DNA of 64,000 nucleotides from Flavobacteriaceae bacterium. GTDB taxonomy: Bacteria > Bacteroidota > Bacteroidia > Flavobacteriales > Flavobacteriaceae. Positions 22,945 through 32,860 of the stretch are shown here, in pieces (position 1 is the first letter of the stretch; every line of letters starts with the position of its first letter). The notes beneath the pieces were generated by a model that had not been told where the DNA came from, made no database searches, and saw nothing but the letters and a program-made list of their open reading frames with translations. The position numbers and the translations under genes are program-made. The stretch is taken from positions 1-64,000 of the forward strand of contig JABXHX010000030.1 in the NCBI GenBank assembly GCA_013373385.1, read 5' to 3'.

Positions 22945-24135
22945 TTAATCCAATGTTTCATGTAAAATATCTAAAGGATTATCATCTAAAATTGTTTCTT
23001 CTGTTTCGTCTTTGGTAGCGCTTACACTAAGTATCATACCAAGTGCAAAACACGTCATCCAAATAGAGGTTCCTCCACTACTTATCAGTGGTAATGTTTG
23101 TCCGGTTACAGGAAATAAATTACTGGCAACCGCCATGTTTATCATAGCTTGAAAAATAATTGGAATTCCAACTCCAATAACCAACAATGTTGCAAAAATT
23201 GTATTTGCTTTTTTTGCTGCGATTAATATTCTAAAGAGCAATAAAAAGTAAATAAAGATGACTGAAAATGCACCTACCAATCCAAATTCTTCTACAATAA
23301 TTGCATAAATAAAATCTGATGAAGATTGTGGTAAAAAGTTTTTTTGCACACTTTTTCCCGGGCCTTTCCCTGTTAATCCACCAGTAGCAATAGCAATCTT
23401 TGCTTTGGTTACTTGATAACCTTCTTCTAAATTACCTTTAGAAAAGTTTTCTATTCTACTTTGCCAAGTAGAAACACGGTTTGGCATAGCATCGGGAAAT
23501 GCTTTTGCCGTTAATATAAATAAGGTCAATACTAAAGCGCTAGCTCCTAAAATGTATCCAATATATTTTAATGGATATCCACCAATAAACCCAAGTAACA
23601 CTACCATAAAGAAGATGATAGCTGTGGTAGAAAAATTTGCTGGTAATATAAGCATCAGAATGATTCCTACTGGTAACCATAGCTGCCATAAACTTTCTTT
23701 AAATGCTATTTTTTTTTCTTTATTTTTTGCCAAATACCTAGCTACATATACCATAACAATTACTCCTGCTAAGGTTGATGTTTGAAAACCTACACCTACA
23801 AAAGGAATACGAATCCATCTACTTGCGTTGGCTCCACCAATGGTGGTTCCTTGAGAAAGTGTATATATTAATAAGATAACAACTACTGGTAACATAAGCA
23901 CAGAACCACCACTAAAATATCTGTACGGAATTTTATGTACACCATAAATAATAATAAAGCCCATAATTAATAAAACCATATGCTTTATTAGGTATCCAAA
24001 AGTTGAACCCGAGCCTACAACATATACTAAGTTTGTACTAGCACTATACACTGGCATAAATGAAAATACCGCAAGTACTGCAACGATTGCCCAAATGGTC
24101 TTATCGCCTTTGATATGTTTAAATAGGTGTTGCAT
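22945..24135 (-). CDS. ftsW: FtsW, SEDS-family peptidoglycan glycosyltransferase
   Basis: At 396 aa with about ten TM helices, this belongs to the FtsW/RodA/SpoVE (SEDS) family. Characteristic segments are GGANASRWIRIPFVGVGFQTSTLAG, the loop with GLTGKGPGKSVQKNFLPQSSSDFIYAIIVEEFGLVG and the signature SNLFPVTGQTLPLISSGGTSIW near residue 350. With FtsI it polymerises septal peptidoglycan. The gene stands between murD and murG. The cytoplasmic C-tail is acidic (ATKDETEETILDDNPLD). Confidence 0.96.
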   Translation of the reverse strand: MQHLFKHIKGDKTIWAIVAVLAVFSFMPVYSASTNLVYVVGSGSTFGYLIKHMVLLIMGFIIIYGVHKIPYRYFSGGSVLMLPVVVILLIYTLSQGTTIGGANASRWIRIPFVGVGFQTSTLAGVIVMVYVARYLAKNKEKKIAFKESLWQLWLPVGIILMLILPANFSTTAIIFFMVVLLGFIGGYPLKYIGYILGASALVLTLFILTAKAFPDAMPNRVSTWQSRIENFSKGNLEEGYQVTKAKIAIATGGLTGKGPGKSVQKNFLPQSSSDFIYAIIVEEFGLVGAFSVIFIYFLLLFRILIAAKKANTIFATLLVIGVGIPIIFQAMINMAVASNLFPVTGQTLPLISSGGTSIWMTCFALGMILSVSATKDETEETILDDNPLDILHETLD

Positions 24136-26709: not shown

Positions 26710-28173
26710 TTATTTGTTTAATTGATTAAAACATGCTGTTACAACTTCTAAATCATCAAAATGAAATCGTTCTCCATTTATTTCTTGATAATTCTCATGT
26801 CCTTTTCCTGCAATCAAAATCACATCTCCGCTTTCAGATAGTTTGCACGCTGTTTTAATAGCTTGCTTTCTATCTACAATAGCTAATGTTTTGCCAATAT
26901 TCTCTTTTGCAACGCCAATCTCCATTTCGTCAATAATTGTCTGCGCATCTTCTGTTCTTGGGTTGTCTGAAGTAAAAATTGCTTGATTGCTTAACTGAGA
27001 AGCAATCATGGCCATCTTTGGTCTTTTACTTTTATCTCTATCACCTCCACAACCAACAACCGTAATTATTTTTTCTGTTGATTGTTTGATGTCTGTAATG
27101 GTTTCTAATACATTTTTTAAAGCATCTGGCGTATGGGCATAATCTACAATTGCTATAATGCCTGATTTTGAAATTGCATACTGAAACCTACCACTAACAC
27201 TTTCTAGTTCACTCACTAAACGCAAGACTTCCATATGCTCTAATCCGCAGGTATCTGCTACACCTACTATTGCCAGTAAATTATAAGCATTAAACGTTCC
27301 AATTAATTTTGACCATACTTCTACTCCGTTAACAGTCAACAATGTGCCCGACATACTCTTCTCTAAAACCCTTCCTTTGTAATCTGCCAAGGTTTTTAGC
27401 GCATAGGTTTTTTTGGATGCTTTTGTATTCTGTAGCATCACATTTCCGTTTTTATCATCTACATTTACCAAAGCAAAAGCCGATGCTGGTAATGAATCAA
27501 AAAATGCTTTTTTTACATCTCTATACGCCGCAAATGAATTGTGGTAATCTAAATGATCATGCGATAGATTTGTAAACACACCACCTTCAAAACACAATCC
27601 ATGTGTTCTTTTTTGATGGATTCCATGTGAGCTTACCTCCATAAAACAATAAGTTACTCCTGCATCAACCATTTGCTTTAGATACGAATTGATGGTAACA
27701 GAATCTGGCGTTGTATGTGTAGTAGTATATTCTTGCGTATTTACCAGTATTTTCACCGTTGATAACAAGCCTACTTTATGCCCTGCCTTTTTAAACAATT
27801 GATATAATAATGAAGCAATGGTGGTTTTTCCGTTAGTACCTGTAACTCCGATAAGCTTTAATTTTGACGACGGAACATCAAAGAAATTTGATGCCATTAT
27901 TGCCAATGCACTATTCGAATCTTTTACCACAACATAGGTAACAGCATCTACCAATTGCACAGGTAAATCTTCGCAAACTATACTTGTAGCACCTAAAGAA
28001 ATGGCCTTTTCTATAAATAAATGCCCGTTTACAGTAACGCCTTTTTGCGCAACAAAACAATCTCCTTGCTGTATTTTCCTAGAATCAAACTGAATAGCAT
28101 TTACAGAAACATCCGTATTCCCTACAATGTGTTCTAGCGAAACTTTATACAATATGTCTTTTAAATTCTTCAA
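26710..28173 (-). CDS. murE: UDP-MurNAc-L-Ala-D-Glu--meso-diaminopimelate ligase, TTG start
   Basis: At 487 aa, this adds the third residue of the stem peptide. The P-loop is [15 protein letters not shown] near residue 108, and the DNPR motif (TSDNPRTED, near residue 400) marks specificity for meso-diaminopimelate, so this organism should have DAP-type peptidoglycan. The N-terminal UDP-binding domain starts after [11 protein letters not shown]. The start codon is TTG at 28173; there is no ATG in the preceding gap of five bases after the ftsI stop. It is the fifth gene of the cluster. Confidence 0.96.
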
Positions 28174-28178
28174 CAGCT

Positions 28179-30200
28179 TTACATTAATTTTAAAAGAATT
28201 ACATCTCCTTTTTTAAAAGAAGCTCCCTTTCTTATAGATTGTTTTTCCACTTTCCCTGCTCCTTCAAACTTTACTCTCATACCTAAGTTTTCTAGTAGCG
28301 AAACTGCATCCATACCAGACATACCTTTTACATCTGGAACTGCTTTTGTTTCTTTTTGTAACTTTTTATAATAGGCTTGATAATTTTTATCTATTGTTTC
28401 TACTGGTGGATTATCTGTTACTTGCTGCACATCAAACGGTGTTGTTGTATAAATTTTTTGAGCAATTTCTTTAAACACTGGTGCTGCAACGGTTGCTCCG
28501 TAATAACCTTTCTTTTTATTTGGTTCGTGTATCACAACTATACAAGAATACTTTGGTTTATCAGCCGGAAAAAATCCTGCAAATGATGCTACATATAGTT
28601 GATTGGAATAATGTCCTTTTATTACATTTCCTTCCTTGTCTGTGGTTTTATCTACCCACTTTTTTGCAGTTCCTGTTTTACCTGCCATTGAAAAATATGG
28701 AGAATAGATGTTATCTGCTGTTCCTTTTTTCACAACATTTTCCATTACTTTTCTTATCTTTTTTATCGTCTCCTGACTTGCAATTCTTTCTTTTAAAATT
28801 ACCCTTTCAAATACTTTTTCTGTTTTGTTTTGTACACGCAGCTCTTTAACAAACCTTGGTTTTATCATTCGTCCATCATTTGCTACAGCATTATAAAAAG
28901 TTAGCATTTGTAATGGTGTCATAGAAACTCCATAACCCCATGCCATCCATTCTAGTGAAATTTTATTCCACGGATTTCTTTTATTTCCTGGATAAGGAAT
29001 AAACGGCGTTCCTTCTCCTTTAATTTGTAGGCCTAATTTTTTATCTAAGCCAAAAGCTTTCATTTTGCTGATGAATTTCAGCGGATTCTTATCATAATGC
29101 TTACGAATAAGTTTCACAATTCCAACATTAGAAGAGACTTCAAAAACTCTTGCTGCCGATATTTTCCCATAACCACCTCTATGCGAATCTTCTACCTTAC
29201 TACCATGCAACCATAAAATTCCTTTTTCTGTATCCACTACCGTTGCTGTATCTATGACTTTATCATCTATTGCTGCCATTAAACTTGCTAGTTTAAATGT
29301 TGAGCCAGGTTCGTGCGATTCCCATACTGCATAATTTCTTTTTTCATAATATTTACCATTAGATGTTCTACCTAAATTAGCAATAGCTTTAATCTCTCCT
29401 GTAGCAGTTTCCATCACAATGGCACAACCGTGCTCTGCTTCAAAATATTCCATTTGACGCAACAAAGCATGATGGGTTATATCTTGGAAATTTACATCTA
29501 TAGTTGTGATGACATCTTTACCATTTATGGGTTCTTTTTCATTGACATCATTAATGGGTTTCCACTGTCCTTTTGCAATTTTTTGTTTCAATCTCCATCC
29601 ATTTTCTCCTTCTAAATATGCAGCAAAAGCTCCCTCAATCCCTGCTCCACCTCTATAATCATCATATCCAATTGTTCTTTCTGCAATTTTTCCAATGGGC
29701 TTTACTCGTACTGTTTTTTGCTCGGTTATAAATCCGCCTTTATAAGGACCGAGTTTAAAAATCGGAAATTGCTTAATCTTCATATAATCATTGTATCCCA
29801 AATTTCTTGCTATTAACAAATAACGATTCTTACGTTTGCGAGCATTACGCAATAGTTGTTGATAATAGGATGTAGGCTTTCCTAACAAACCTGACAAAGA
29901 CCTAGAAAGTGCTGTTACATTTTTCTCAAAAACAGCACTCTTTACCGCTACCAAATCCATTCTAATAGTATACTTATACATAGAAGTTGCTAACAAGTTG
30001 CCGTCTGCTGCGTATACATTTCCTCTGTTAGAAAAAATAGTATCGTATTTAATTGTTTGTTTTTTAGATTGCTTTCTATATTCATCTCCTTGGACATATT
30101 GTATATTTATTATTCGCACTACAATGACCAAGAAAAAAAGCGTCATTAAAGCAGTGACTATATATAGTTTGTTTAATATGCTCTTTTTTATGGTTGCCAA
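28179..30200 (-). CDS. ftsI: FtsI, penicillin-binding protein 2/3-type transpeptidase with PASTA domain, TTG start
   Basis: At 673 aa, this has an N-terminal TM helix (about 12-32), a PBP dimerisation domain (about 55-220), a transpeptidase domain with SxxK in EPGSTFKLAS (nucleophilic Ser near residue 302), SxN in VSSNVGIV and KTG in AGKTGTAKK, and a C-terminal PASTA domain (about 610-673; VPDVKGMSGMDAVSLLENLG). It cross-links septal peptidoglycan in the periplasm with FtsW. The start is TTG at 30200, because no ATG occurs before the TM helix. PASTA on FtsI is usual in Bacteroidota and Firmicutes-type PBPs, not in E. coli. Confidence 0.95.
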   Translation of the reverse strand: MATIKKSILNKLYIVTALMTLFFLVIVVRIINIQYVQGDEYRKQSKKQTIKYDTIFSNRGNVYAADGNLLATSMYKYTIRMDLVAVKSAVFEKNVTALSRSLSGLLGKPTSYYQQLLRNARKRKNRYLLIARNLGYNDYMKIKQFPIFKLGPYKGGFITEQKTVRVKPIGKIAERTIGYDDYRGGAGIEGAFAAYLEGENGWRLKQKIAKGQWKPINDVNEKEPINGKDVITTIDVNFQDITHHALLRQMEYFEAEHGCAIVMETATGEIKAIANLGRTSNGKYYEKRNYAVWESHEPGSTFKLASLMAAIDDKVIDTATVVDTEKGILWLHGSKVEDSHRGGYGKISAARVFEVSSNVGIVKLIRKHYDKNPLKFISKMKAFGLDKKLGLQIKGEGTPFIPYPGNKRNPWNKISLEWMAWGYGVSMTPLQMLTFYNAVANDGRMIKPRFVKELRVQNKTEKVFERVILKERIASQETIKKIRKVMENVVKKGTADNIYSPYFSMAGKTGTAKKWVDKTTDKEGNVIKGHYSNQLYVASFAGFFPADKPKYSCIVVIHEPNKKKGYYGATVAAPVFKEIAQKIYTTTPFDVQQVTDNPPVETIDKNYQAYYKKLQKETKAVPDVKGMSGMDAVSLLENLGMRVKFEGAGKVEKQSIRKGASFKKGDVILLKLM

Positions 30201-30205
30201 GACGA

Positions 30206-30532
30206 TTACTTTTTTGTGATAATTTTTATTTTTTGAGGAGATGAATTTGAAGGTAAGACTCCTCGTTTCTCTACCTTTTCTCTAATATTGGATTCCATTT
30301 TCATCCGCATCAAAAAGGTTCCTGTATCAACATATTCTGCTTCTAATTCTCGTTTCTTTTTATTCAACGCCGCAATTTCTATTACTTTACTATCTACCCT
30401 ATGCGCACTAGAAATCATAAACAACAATAAGACAACTACAAAAAAGATGATACGCCAGTTTTTAAATGACGACGCATCTGTTAAAAAGCTTCCTCTTAAA
30501 ATATCGTATATGTTTCTTTTTACTCTTGGCAA
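30206..30532 (-). CDS. FtsL-like division protein, TTG start
   Basis: The 108-aa bitopic protein has a cytoplasmic N-terminus (MPRVKRNIYDILRGSFLTDASSFKNW), one TM helix (about 28-47) and a periplasmic coiled-coil-like helix (IEIAALNKKKRELEAEYVDTGTFLMRMKMES). The position between rsmH and ftsI, and the topology, identify it as FtsL, here of the Bacteroidota type with low sequence similarity to E. coli FtsL. The start is TTG at 30532, three bases after the rsmH stop; in frame only one codon separates it from an upstream stop, so no ATG is possible. Confidence 0.85.
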   Translation of the reverse strand: MPRVKRNIYDILRGSFLTDASSFKNWRIIFFVVVLLLFMISSAHRVDSKVIEIAALNKKKRELEAEYVDTGTFLMRMKMESNIREKVEKRGVLPSNSSPQKIKIITKK

Positions 30533-30535
30533 TGT

Positions 30536-31435
30536 CTATTTATTTAAAGTTGCTACTCTCAATTTTGCACTTCTAGCTCTATTATTATTTTTTATTTCTG
30601 CAGGTGTTGGTATTATTAATTTTCCAACTTTTTTTAACGGCACATTAATATTTCCGTAAAAATCTTTTTCTGGCTCTCCACTAAACAATCCTGTTCTTAT
30701 AAATCTTTTTACCAATCTATCTTCTAAAGAATGATACGAGATGACACTCAATCTACCGTCTTCATTTAACAACTCTGGTATCTGGCTTAAAAATTCTTTC
30801 AACACTTCTAACTCTTGATTGACTTCTATTCTAATTGCCTGATAAATCTGAGCCAATATTTTATGTTCTTTTGCTTTCGGTAAATGCCTTTGCAAAACTT
30901 CTTTTAACTGAAAACTTGTTTCTATGTTGCTTACTAACCTTGCGTTAACAATATCTTTAGCCAAAGCTCTAGCATTTCTTAATTCTCCATATAAAAAAAG
31001 AATATCCGCTAATTGTTCTTCTTCATATTCATTCACTACATTCTTTGCAGACAATACCGCTTTTTGATCCATTCGCATATCTAAATCTGCATCAAAACGA
31101 GTAGAAAAACCTCTTTCTGCTGCATCAAATTGATGCGATGAGACACCCAAATCTGCCAAAACCCCATCCACTTTTTTTACTCTATAGAACTTTAAAAACC
31201 TTGAGATATATCTAAAGTTTTCCGCTATTAGCACAAACCTCTCGTCATCAATTTTATTTTGCTGTGCATCTGGATCTTGATCAAACGCAAACAGTCTTCC
31301 TTCTTTTCCCAATCGACTTAATATTTCTCGAGAATGACCACCTCCACCAAAAGTTACATCTACATATACCCCATCTGGTTTTATAGATAAAGCATCAACG
31401 CTCTCATACAACAATACTGGATTATGATAACTCAT
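30536..31435 (-). CDS. rsmH: 16S rRNA (cytosine(1402)-N(4))-methyltransferase
   Basis: At 299 aa, this SAM-dependent methyltransferase modifies C1402 of 16S rRNA in the decoding centre. The N-terminus begins MSYHNPVLLYESVDAL, followed by the SAM motif VDVTFGGGGHSREIL, the acidic AFDQDPDA, LADLGVSSHQFD and the C-terminal ISYHSLEDRLVKRF. Standard in the dcw cluster after mraZ. It overlaps the mraZ end by 14 bases, and starts with ATG unlike mraZ and ftsL on either side. Confidence 0.97.
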   Translation of the reverse strand: MSYHNPVLLYESVDALSIKPDGVYVDVTFGGGGHSREILSRLGKEGRLFAFDQDPDAQQNKIDDERFVLIAENFRYISRFLKFYRVKKVDGVLADLGVSSHQFDAAERGFSTRFDADLDMRMDQKAVLSAKNVVNEYEEEQLADILFLYGELRNARALAKDIVNARLVSNIETSFQLKEVLQRHLPKAKEHKILAQIYQAIRIEVNQELEVLKEFLSQIPELLNEDGRLSVISYHSLEDRLVKRFIRTGLFSGEPEKDFYGNINVPLKKVGKLIIPTPAEIKNNNRARSAKLRVATLNK

Positions 31436-31889
31436 CCGCTTCTGTATTACCCATTACCTCTTCTGCTAATTCAGCAAAATCTAGCGCCGCATCATCAATG
31501 GCTTTTTCATAGTTATCCTTATCCCAAATCTCAATAATATTTACAGCAGACGACAATACTATTTGCTTTTGAATTCCTGCAAACTGACATAAATCCTTAG
31601 GAATCAACAATCTTCCAGAAGCATCTAACTCCACCACTTTTACCCCTGCAGTAAACCTCCTAATAAAATCGTTGTTCTTTTTAACAAAACGATTTAGCTT
31701 GTTAATCTTAGCCATCATCAAATTCCATTCTTGCATAGGATACAACTCTAAACAAGGCTGAAAAACAGCTCTCTTCACAACAAACCCTTCTGACACAACT
31801 GGCAGCAATTGCTTCTTTAAAGCTGACGAAAACATCACCCTTCCTTTAGCATCTGCCTTACACTCGTATGTTCCAATTAAGTTTATCAA
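31422..31889 (-). CDS. mraZ: Transcriptional regulator MraZ, TTG start
   Basis: The 155-aa protein has two AbrB/SpoVT-like MraZ domains, both with a DxxGR motif: about residues 1-60 (GTYECKADAKGRVMF) and 75-130 (VVELDASGRLLIPKDLC). MraZ binds tandem short boxes upstream of its own gene and controls the dcw cluster. The start is TTG at 31889; the four codons upstream lack ATG and then a stop occurs. Three tandem 10-bp repeats and a -7 box lie upstream, so autoregulation is well supported. Confidence 0.95.
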   Translation of the reverse strand: MINLIGTYECKADAKGRVMFSSALKKQLLPVVSEGFVVKRAVFQPCLELYPMQEWNLMMAKINKLNRFVKKNNDFIRRFTAGVKVVELDASGRLLIPKDLCQFAGIQKQIVLSSAVNIIEIWDKDNYEKAIDDAALDFAELAEEVMGNTEADELS

Positions 31890-31917: not shown

Positions 31918-31925
31918 CAAAAATA
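31918..31925 (-). promoter_or_regulatory. -7 element of the mraZ/dcw promoter
   Basis: TATTTTTG on the minus strand matches TAnnTTTG about 29 bases before the mraZ TTG start. The three MraZ boxes lie directly upstream, where -33 contacts are expected, so bound MraZ would occlude the promoter. Confidence 0.55.
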
Positions 31926-31930
31926 TAAAA

Positions 31931-31960
31931 TTTTTACCACTTTTTACCACTTTTTACCAC
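31931..31960 (-). promoter_or_regulatory. MraZ operator: three tandem 10-bp boxes
   Basis: Three perfect copies of TTTTTACCAC on the plus strand (GTGGTAAAAA on the minus) are set in a row without gaps. Read as AAAGTGGTAA units, they fit the AAAGTG(T/G)N3 repeats known as MraZ sites in mycoplasmas and the 10-bp periodic TGGGN boxes of E. coli. They are 42-71 bases upstream of the mraZ start. Confidence 0.8.
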
Positions 31961-32063
31961 ATTGTTAATAAAATTTTACTTTTTGGATAAAATGTTGATT
32001 ACACAACAGATACCACCATTACAGAAGAAAAAACTAAGAAATGCATATGTCCTAAAAAAAAAC

Positions 32064-32095: not shown

Positions 32096-32860
32096 ATGAC
32101 AAAAAACTTAACTAAGGAAGGTAAATTTACCTATGCTGAAGCTGGAGAAGGACAACCAATAGTTATTTTACACGGTTTAATGGGAGCTTTGAGTAATTTT
32201 GACGATACATTTAATCATTTTTCAAAAAATGGATACAAAGTATTGATACCTGAACTGCCTTTATACAAGCTACCTTTACTGAAAACAAATGTTAAGAACT
32301 TAGCTAAATTCTTAAATGATTTTATTGAATATAAACAGCTAAAAAAAGTTGTTTTAGTTGGTAATTCTCTAGGCGGTCATATTGCATTGTACTTTACAAA
32401 ACATTTCCCAGAAAAAGTTAAAGCCTTGGTACTTACCGGAAGCTCTGGATTGTACGAAAACTCAATGGGAGATAGTTACCCAAAAAGAGGTGACAGAAAT
32501 TATGTTACTCAAAAAGCAAGAGATGTTTTCTACGATCCTGCAATAGCAACAGAAGAACTGATAGATGATATTTATGTGGTAATTAACGACCGAAGTTCTT
32601 TAATTAGAACTCTTTCAATTGCTAAAAGCGCTATTAGACATAATATGGCTAAGGATCTACCAAAAATAAACCTACCAACCTGTTTAATCTGGGGAAAACA
32701 AGATAAAGTAACTCCGCCTGAAGTAGCTGAAGATTTCCATAGATTATTACCAGACTCTGATTTATTTTGGATTGACAAATGTGGTCATGCTGCCATGATG
32801 GAAAGACCTGAAGAATTTAACACAGTTCTTGAAAAATGGCTAAGCTCTAGAAATATCTAA
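32096..32860 (+). CDS. Alpha/beta hydrolase
   Basis: At 254 aa it has the full alpha/beta-hydrolase set: oxyanion-hole HGLMG near residue 27, nucleophile elbow GNSLGGH (Ser near residue 86), acid in WGKQDKVTP (Asp near 203) and His in CGHAAMMERP (near 230). No signal peptide, so cytoplasmic. The substrate is unknown; similar proteins hydrolyse small esters or C-C bonds. It heads an operon-like run of seven genes; engB begins five bases after its stop. Confidence 0.9.
   Translation: MTKNLTKEGKFTYAEAGEGQPIVILHGLMGALSNFDDTFNHFSKNGYKVLIPELPLYKLPLLKTNVKNLAKFLNDFIEYKQLKKVVLVGNSLGGHIALYFTKHFPEKVKALVLTGSSGLYENSMGDSYPKRGDRNYVTQKARDVFYDPAIATEELIDDIYVVINDRSSLIRTLSIAKSAIRHNMAKDLPKINLPTCLIWGKQDKVTPPEVAEDFHRLLPDSDLFWIDKCGHAAMMERPEEFNTVLEKWLSSRNI

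Follow-up and report, generated by a model that had tools for sequence, protein, structure and literature searches.

How the initiation of replication is coupled to cell division in bacteria is an open question, and the region upstream of mraZ in a 64,000-nucleotide stretch of Flavobacteriaceae DNA (contig JABXHX010000030.1, positions 1 to 64,000; the whole stretch analysed is here called the window) raises it at a single locus. The sequence before this dcw operon carries an array of MraZ boxes and, beside it, a DnaA-box-like 9-mer (Table 1), and it is asked here what would control such a promoter. The source genome is Polaribacter (Flavobacteriaceae), and its near relatives by MraZ are Polaribacter (96 % identity).

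Table 1. Features of the mraZ promoter region and neighbouring genes, in window coordinates
Feature	Position	Strand	Basis or remark
Mur ligase (murE position)	26710..28173	-	Domain search
PBP transpeptidase with PASTA domain (ftsI-like)	28179..30200	-	Domain search
FtsL-like (FtsL_2)	30206..30532	-	PF19579
rsmH/mraW	30536..31435	-	PF01795
mraZ, 155 aa, TTG start	31422..31889	-	PF02381, 1.1e-25
Predicted transcription start (+1)	31913	-	Inferred from -7 at -12 to -5 (PMC9723704)
Bacteroidota sigma-A -7 element TATTTTTG (TAnnTTTG)	31918..31925	-	Sequence; 5 bp after box 3
MraZ box 3, GTGGTAAAAA	31931..31940	-	Sequence and family profile
MraZ box 2, GTGGTAAAAA	31941..31950	-	At the usual place of the -33 TTG (17-23 nt before -7)
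MraZ box 1, GTGGTAAAAA	31951..31960	-	Sequence and family profile positions 0-9
DnaA-box-like 9-mer TTATTAACA	31963..31971	-	At about -58 to -50, with 2 bp between it and box 1
Alpha/beta hydrolase, divergent	32096..32860	+	206-bp intergenic region common with mraZ

The MraZ box array and the -7 promoter

Read on the minus strand, the locus has the order TTATTAACAAT-GTGGTAAAAA-GTGGTAAAAA-GTGGTAAAAA-TTTTA-TATTTTTG, the three GTGGTAAAAA copies being exact and contiguous. The initial annotation had described three exact, gap-free copies just upstream of a -7 element, and both the copies and their location are confirmed by the sequence; with the window modelled as a first-order Markov chain, approximately 7e-12 such exact triplets are expected, and no other exact triple 10-mer was found in the window. 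Single exact GTGGTAAAAA 10-mers are also present at positions 23328, 43674, and 55592 of the window, therefore what distinguishes the locus is the tandem array alone. Across the whole source genome (2.94 Mb, 98 contigs) the triplet occurs once: GTGG-N6-GTGG-N6-GTGG with at most one mismatch has one match, the array locus itself, and a GTGGTAAAAA doublet, with up to three mismatches allowed, has no matches at other places in the genome beyond weak ones at noise level. The search for additional MraZ boxes that had been proposed thus produced no extra MraZ targets, and the triplet, previously presented as notable in itself, is not exceptional, because Flavobacteriaceae normally have an array of three boxes.

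Conservation was assessed in mraZ upstream regions from a family sample of approximately one genome for each genus, a class-wide sample, and 80 named records. Three boxes scored above threshold in 122 of 123 family loci, against 4 of 123 in the reversed-sequence control; the GTGG core is 95-100 % conserved in each box of the family profile, and the geometry of the array before mraZ is fixed across the family. Nineteen genomes had no MraZ match, and rsmH was located in 15 of them, none of which has GTGG-N6-GTGG within 1500 bp upstream of rsmH (0/15). The MraZ-less genomes without the array include one closed Flavobacteriaceae genome. This loss of the array together with mraZ, and its uniqueness in the genome, speak strongly for MraZ as the cognate factor, and the assignment of the array as an MraZ operator is well supported by these comparisons.

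Flavobacterial sigma-A promoters have TAnnTTTG at -12 to -5 (PMC9723704), and by the transcription start rule of that study the array here spans about -47 to -18, which includes the -33 area. In the family, 121 of 122 loci have a TAnnTTT -7 at 4-6 bp past box 3. Among the 121 family mraZ promoters in which a -7 could be recognised, none has TTG at 17-23 nt upstream of it, whereas the HU promoter of the same family has TTG-N19-TAAATTTG in 12 out of 12 loci examined; the absence of the -33 is therefore a property of the mraZ promoter rather than an artefact of the method. Based on its absence from all 121 promoters, it is considered that the array replaces the -33 element. Compared with the Flavobacterium sigma-A promoters (PMC9723704), TAnnTTTG is the same, but there is no -33 TTG and that region is filled by the MraZ array.

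The remaining points of the initial annotation can be set against these data. It had matched the repeats to the known MraZ site pattern, and this agrees with GTGG-core tandem repeats at a 10-bp period upstream of mraZ that are conserved in the family and lost with MraZ. The lack of a visible -33 TTG extends from this locus to all 121 promoters of the family in which a -7 is recognised, and the coverage of the -33 area follows from the flavobacterial start rule. Its interpretation, in which MraZ would bind the array and repress, is supported in part and is incomplete, as the DnaA-box-like 9-mer beside the array was overlooked, and with it the likely regulatory logic changes.

A DnaA-box-like 9-mer beside the array

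The classical DnaA box is TTWTNCACA. TTATTAACA misses it by one mismatch, A for C at position 6, and the 9-mer varies at the same two positions as the classical box (W at 3, N at 5). Of 122 Flavobacteriaceae loci, 112 have the form TTWTNMACA with 2-3 bp between its end and box 1 (offset -11 or -12), and it has the same offsets in 44 of 65 other loci of the class; among the named relatives it is at -11, 2 bp before box 1, in 75 out of 79, and offsets other than -11 and -12 are rare. The 9-mer and array combined as one pattern gave 71 matches in 71 of 396 class genomes, one per genome, against 1 in the reversed control, with the match in the source genome at 31947-31971 on the minus strand (G000:C83). 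Within the 9-mer profile, position 6 is A in 96 % and position 8 is C in 82 %. Canonical DnaA boxes occupy the orthologous site in a few relatives, either as TTATCCACA (L073, G449) or TTATTCACA (G661), or inverted, as TGTGGATAA (L182) or TGTGGAAAA (L017, L221, L222). Where the upstream neighbour gene or its orientation differs, the 9-mer stays 2-3 bp from the array. It is classed, by sequence, as DnaA-box-like and non-canonical, and the factor predicted to bind it is quite probably DnaA.

Other identities were considered for the 9-mer. A fourth, degenerate MraZ box was rejected: aligned at the 10-bp period, the 9-mer does not match GTGGTAAAAA, and it persists in loci whose box 1 has degenerated (L205, L225, L230). 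Likewise, a part in the divergent promoter was rejected because the 9-mer is kept with different neighbours. Some Polaribacter have lost the 9-mer and kept three MraZ boxes (L040 from G029, L240, and L241), and there is none beside the array in the loci of family f4 (L014, L015, L030, L032, L037); it is therefore not indispensable.

Recurrence at hupB, dnaB, and a candidate oriC

Pairs of TTATNMACA were sought in 24 mostly closed genomes, with gene names taken from translated frames. Upstream of hupB (HU; after fmt), pairs of TTATYAACA with starts 20 bp apart were present in 12 loci (L321, L323, L326, L331, L340, L344, L345, L387, L428-L430, L432); their distance from TTG-N19-TAAATTTG does not vary. 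Seven loci have pairs upstream of dnaB (after accA), spaced by 20 bp with one at 21 bp (L322, L324, L327, L330, L334, L335, L431); these mix canonical TTATCCACA or TTATTCACA with TTATYAACA, and the CACA and AACA forms interchange between genomes. From the start of the proximal predicted DnaA box to the -7 there are 57 nt in the HU promoter and 46-47 nt in the mraZ promoter; the two differ by one helical turn, so that, relative to polymerase, DnaA would lie on the same helical face in both. This phasing favours activation by DnaA, although it is only suggestive.

In a phylum member (G030, L342), TTATCAACA and TTATCCACA are intermixed immediately before dnaA. The DnaA of Polaribacter retains Asp-His in its recognition helix and has Ala at the position of E. 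coli Thr435, a position among the possible sources of altered DnaA box preference (PMC5043019). Upstream of dnaA in the source genome, at approximately 80 bp, there is a single canonical box, TTATTCACA, in reverse (L318:2938-2947), for which autoregulation is possible.

For G029, a closed genome of the same genus as the window, GC skew was determined by coarse sampling and then over a contiguous 410 kb. The cumulative minimum is at approximately 865 kb, and beside rpiB there is an 800-bp intergenic region of 82 % AT (G029:C1:862785-863590) with four TTATYAACA at 862.8-863.3 kb. Across the rpiB intergenic regions of 21 family genomes, 39 TTATYAACA were counted against about 2.7 expected, approximately 15-fold. 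Coarse GC skew in G353 does not place the origin at rpiB, so an oriC beside rpiB is likely rather than proven; in Flavobacteriaceae it would be a region of 500-1000 bp, about 80 % AT, and enriched in TTATYAACA. The corresponding region of the source genome is upstream of rpiB on C77 (L390). Other candidates were not retained: the sole exact pair of TTATCAACA in the source genome (L317) is intragenic, an origin beside dnaA in Polaribacter is not supported by the one TTATTCACA there without a cluster, and a cluster in G331 (L329) was dropped because its flanks are unclear. Three tandem TTATYAACA with a 12-bp period are present in G308 (L388; G308:C1:3873311-3873343), in a stretch without a noted open frame.

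A proposed composite promoter for dcw and its alternatives

The evidence at the sequence level consists of the array, its conservation and co-loss with mraZ, the replaced -33, the 9-mer at fixed spacing, and the recurrence of the 9-mer at HU, dnaB, and the likely oriC. With a probability of about 0.7, the locus is read as a composite promoter of DnaA box, MraZ array, and -7 element, in which MraZ would occlude polymerase and DnaA would modulate dcw. The predicted element is rigid: a DnaA box is separated by 2-3 bp from three MraZ boxes with a 10-bp period, and these by 4-6 bp from TAnnTTTG. The array would be the autoregulatory operator of the dcw operon; a 10-bp period should put the three GTGG cores on one DNA face, so one MraZ oligomer could fill all of them, and MraZ lying over about -47 to -18 would block sigma-A polymerase. 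As mraZ is the first gene of the operon, MraZ would limit its own synthesis. Lacking the -33 TTG, the promoter is probably weak alone or in need of help. DnaA, at about -54 and bordering the MraZ array, is a likely modulator that could either assist polymerase or act as a competitor of MraZ, and perhaps it activates dcw transcription; if it acts on the mraZ promoter, dcw transcription would track DnaA activity. Extended to much of the class, a dcw promoter without -33 that is set by DnaA as a helper at about -54 and by MraZ over the -33 can be proposed only tentatively.

MraZ alone might be relevant, with the 9-mer an AT-rich UP-like or structural element that aids polymerase; its position at about -54, the nearby A-tracts (-16 to -13 from box 1), and the AT-rich genomes would suit this. 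Such an element is nevertheless unlikely, given the sequence specificity at positions 6 and 8, the loci in which canonical DnaA boxes replace the 9-mer or it is inverted, and the pairs before dnaB and HU with the cluster at the likely oriC. Another regulator, with a site resembling that of DnaA, could explain why the commonest form, TTATYAACA, differs from TTATNCACA at position 6, but is quite unlikely given that the CACA form and the AACA form replace one another at orthologous sites (dnaB, oriC-like, and mraZ) and that TTATCAACA is found among TTATCCACA before dnaA in G030; the Ala of Polaribacter DnaA offers a possible altered preference instead (PMC5043019).

There is very little to commend the 9-mer serving the divergent alpha/beta hydrolase-engB operon instead of mraZ: the hydrolase is divergent from mraZ in 80 of 80 near relatives, but the 9-mer remains 2-3 bp from the array despite other upstream genes or orientations. 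It is also not likely that the array is other than purely repressive, either with MraZ as an activator here or with the GTGG of box 2 as the -33 element. In favour, the family lacks the -33 TTG and box 2 is at its place; against this, some class members keep just two clear boxes, and E. coli MraZ represses its own operon (Eraso 2014, cited in PMC8475190).

Returning to the composite promoter, its MraZ operator alone is of a known type and the combination is a new arrangement. In the E. coli dcw operator, as here, the cores are of the GTGG type and are repeated three times in tandem with a 10-bp period; unlike it, the present locus has a Bacteroidota -7, an array upstream that replaces the -33, A-rich spacers, and the adjoining DnaA-box-like 9-mer. 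MraZ operators are established in E. coli and Mollicutes (PMC8475190), and the E. coli boxes are likewise autoregulatory and upstream of dcw (Eraso 2014). The Mollicutes site has direct repeats AAAGTG[T/G] (Fisunov 2016, cited in PMC8475190) in the same register before mraZ, and AAAAAGTGG here includes AAAGTG; the M. genitalium site is the sole chromosomal occurrence, as the array is in the source genome. The Mollicutes promoter is of another type, and the account of it in PMC8475190 reports no DnaA site. DnaA acts at division-gene promoters in B. subtilis (ftsL) and Caulobacter (ftsZ), and Caulobacter dnaB is preceded by predicted DnaA boxes (PMC8203912), but that review describes no fixed pairing with an MraZ array, and mraZ, Bacteroidota, and Flavobacterium are unmentioned in it. 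No MraZ or DnaA sites in Bacteroidota were found in the open-access literature, which is weak evidence as subscription papers were outside its scope.

The fixed family-wide arrangement suggests a direct link between chromosome copying and cell division. A predicted DnaA-box-like site at fixed spacing from an MraZ operator in approximately 100 genera could be tested by point mutation; if the link is real, division-gene transcription would be tied directly to the replication initiator, and there would be a small DnaA regulon of dcw plus dnaB and HU. For this large, poorly studied family, the DnaA-box variant TTATYAACA, an oriC beside rpiB, and such a regulon are proposed.

Other arrangements were noted in the samples. 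All nine sampled genomes of family f24 are without an MraZ match (G027, G059, G086, G101, G105, G113, G136, G144, G232). Other phylum members (f23; L013, L018-L021, L025, L027, L029, L031, L035) have a TTGACA/TACATT-like promoter in which GTGGGG boxes begin directly after the -10, so that the MraZ array is downstream of the promoter core, not upstream. The f4 loci listed above have a -7-like TTATTTTG inside the box array (GTGGGAAAAA-GTGTTATTTT-GTG).
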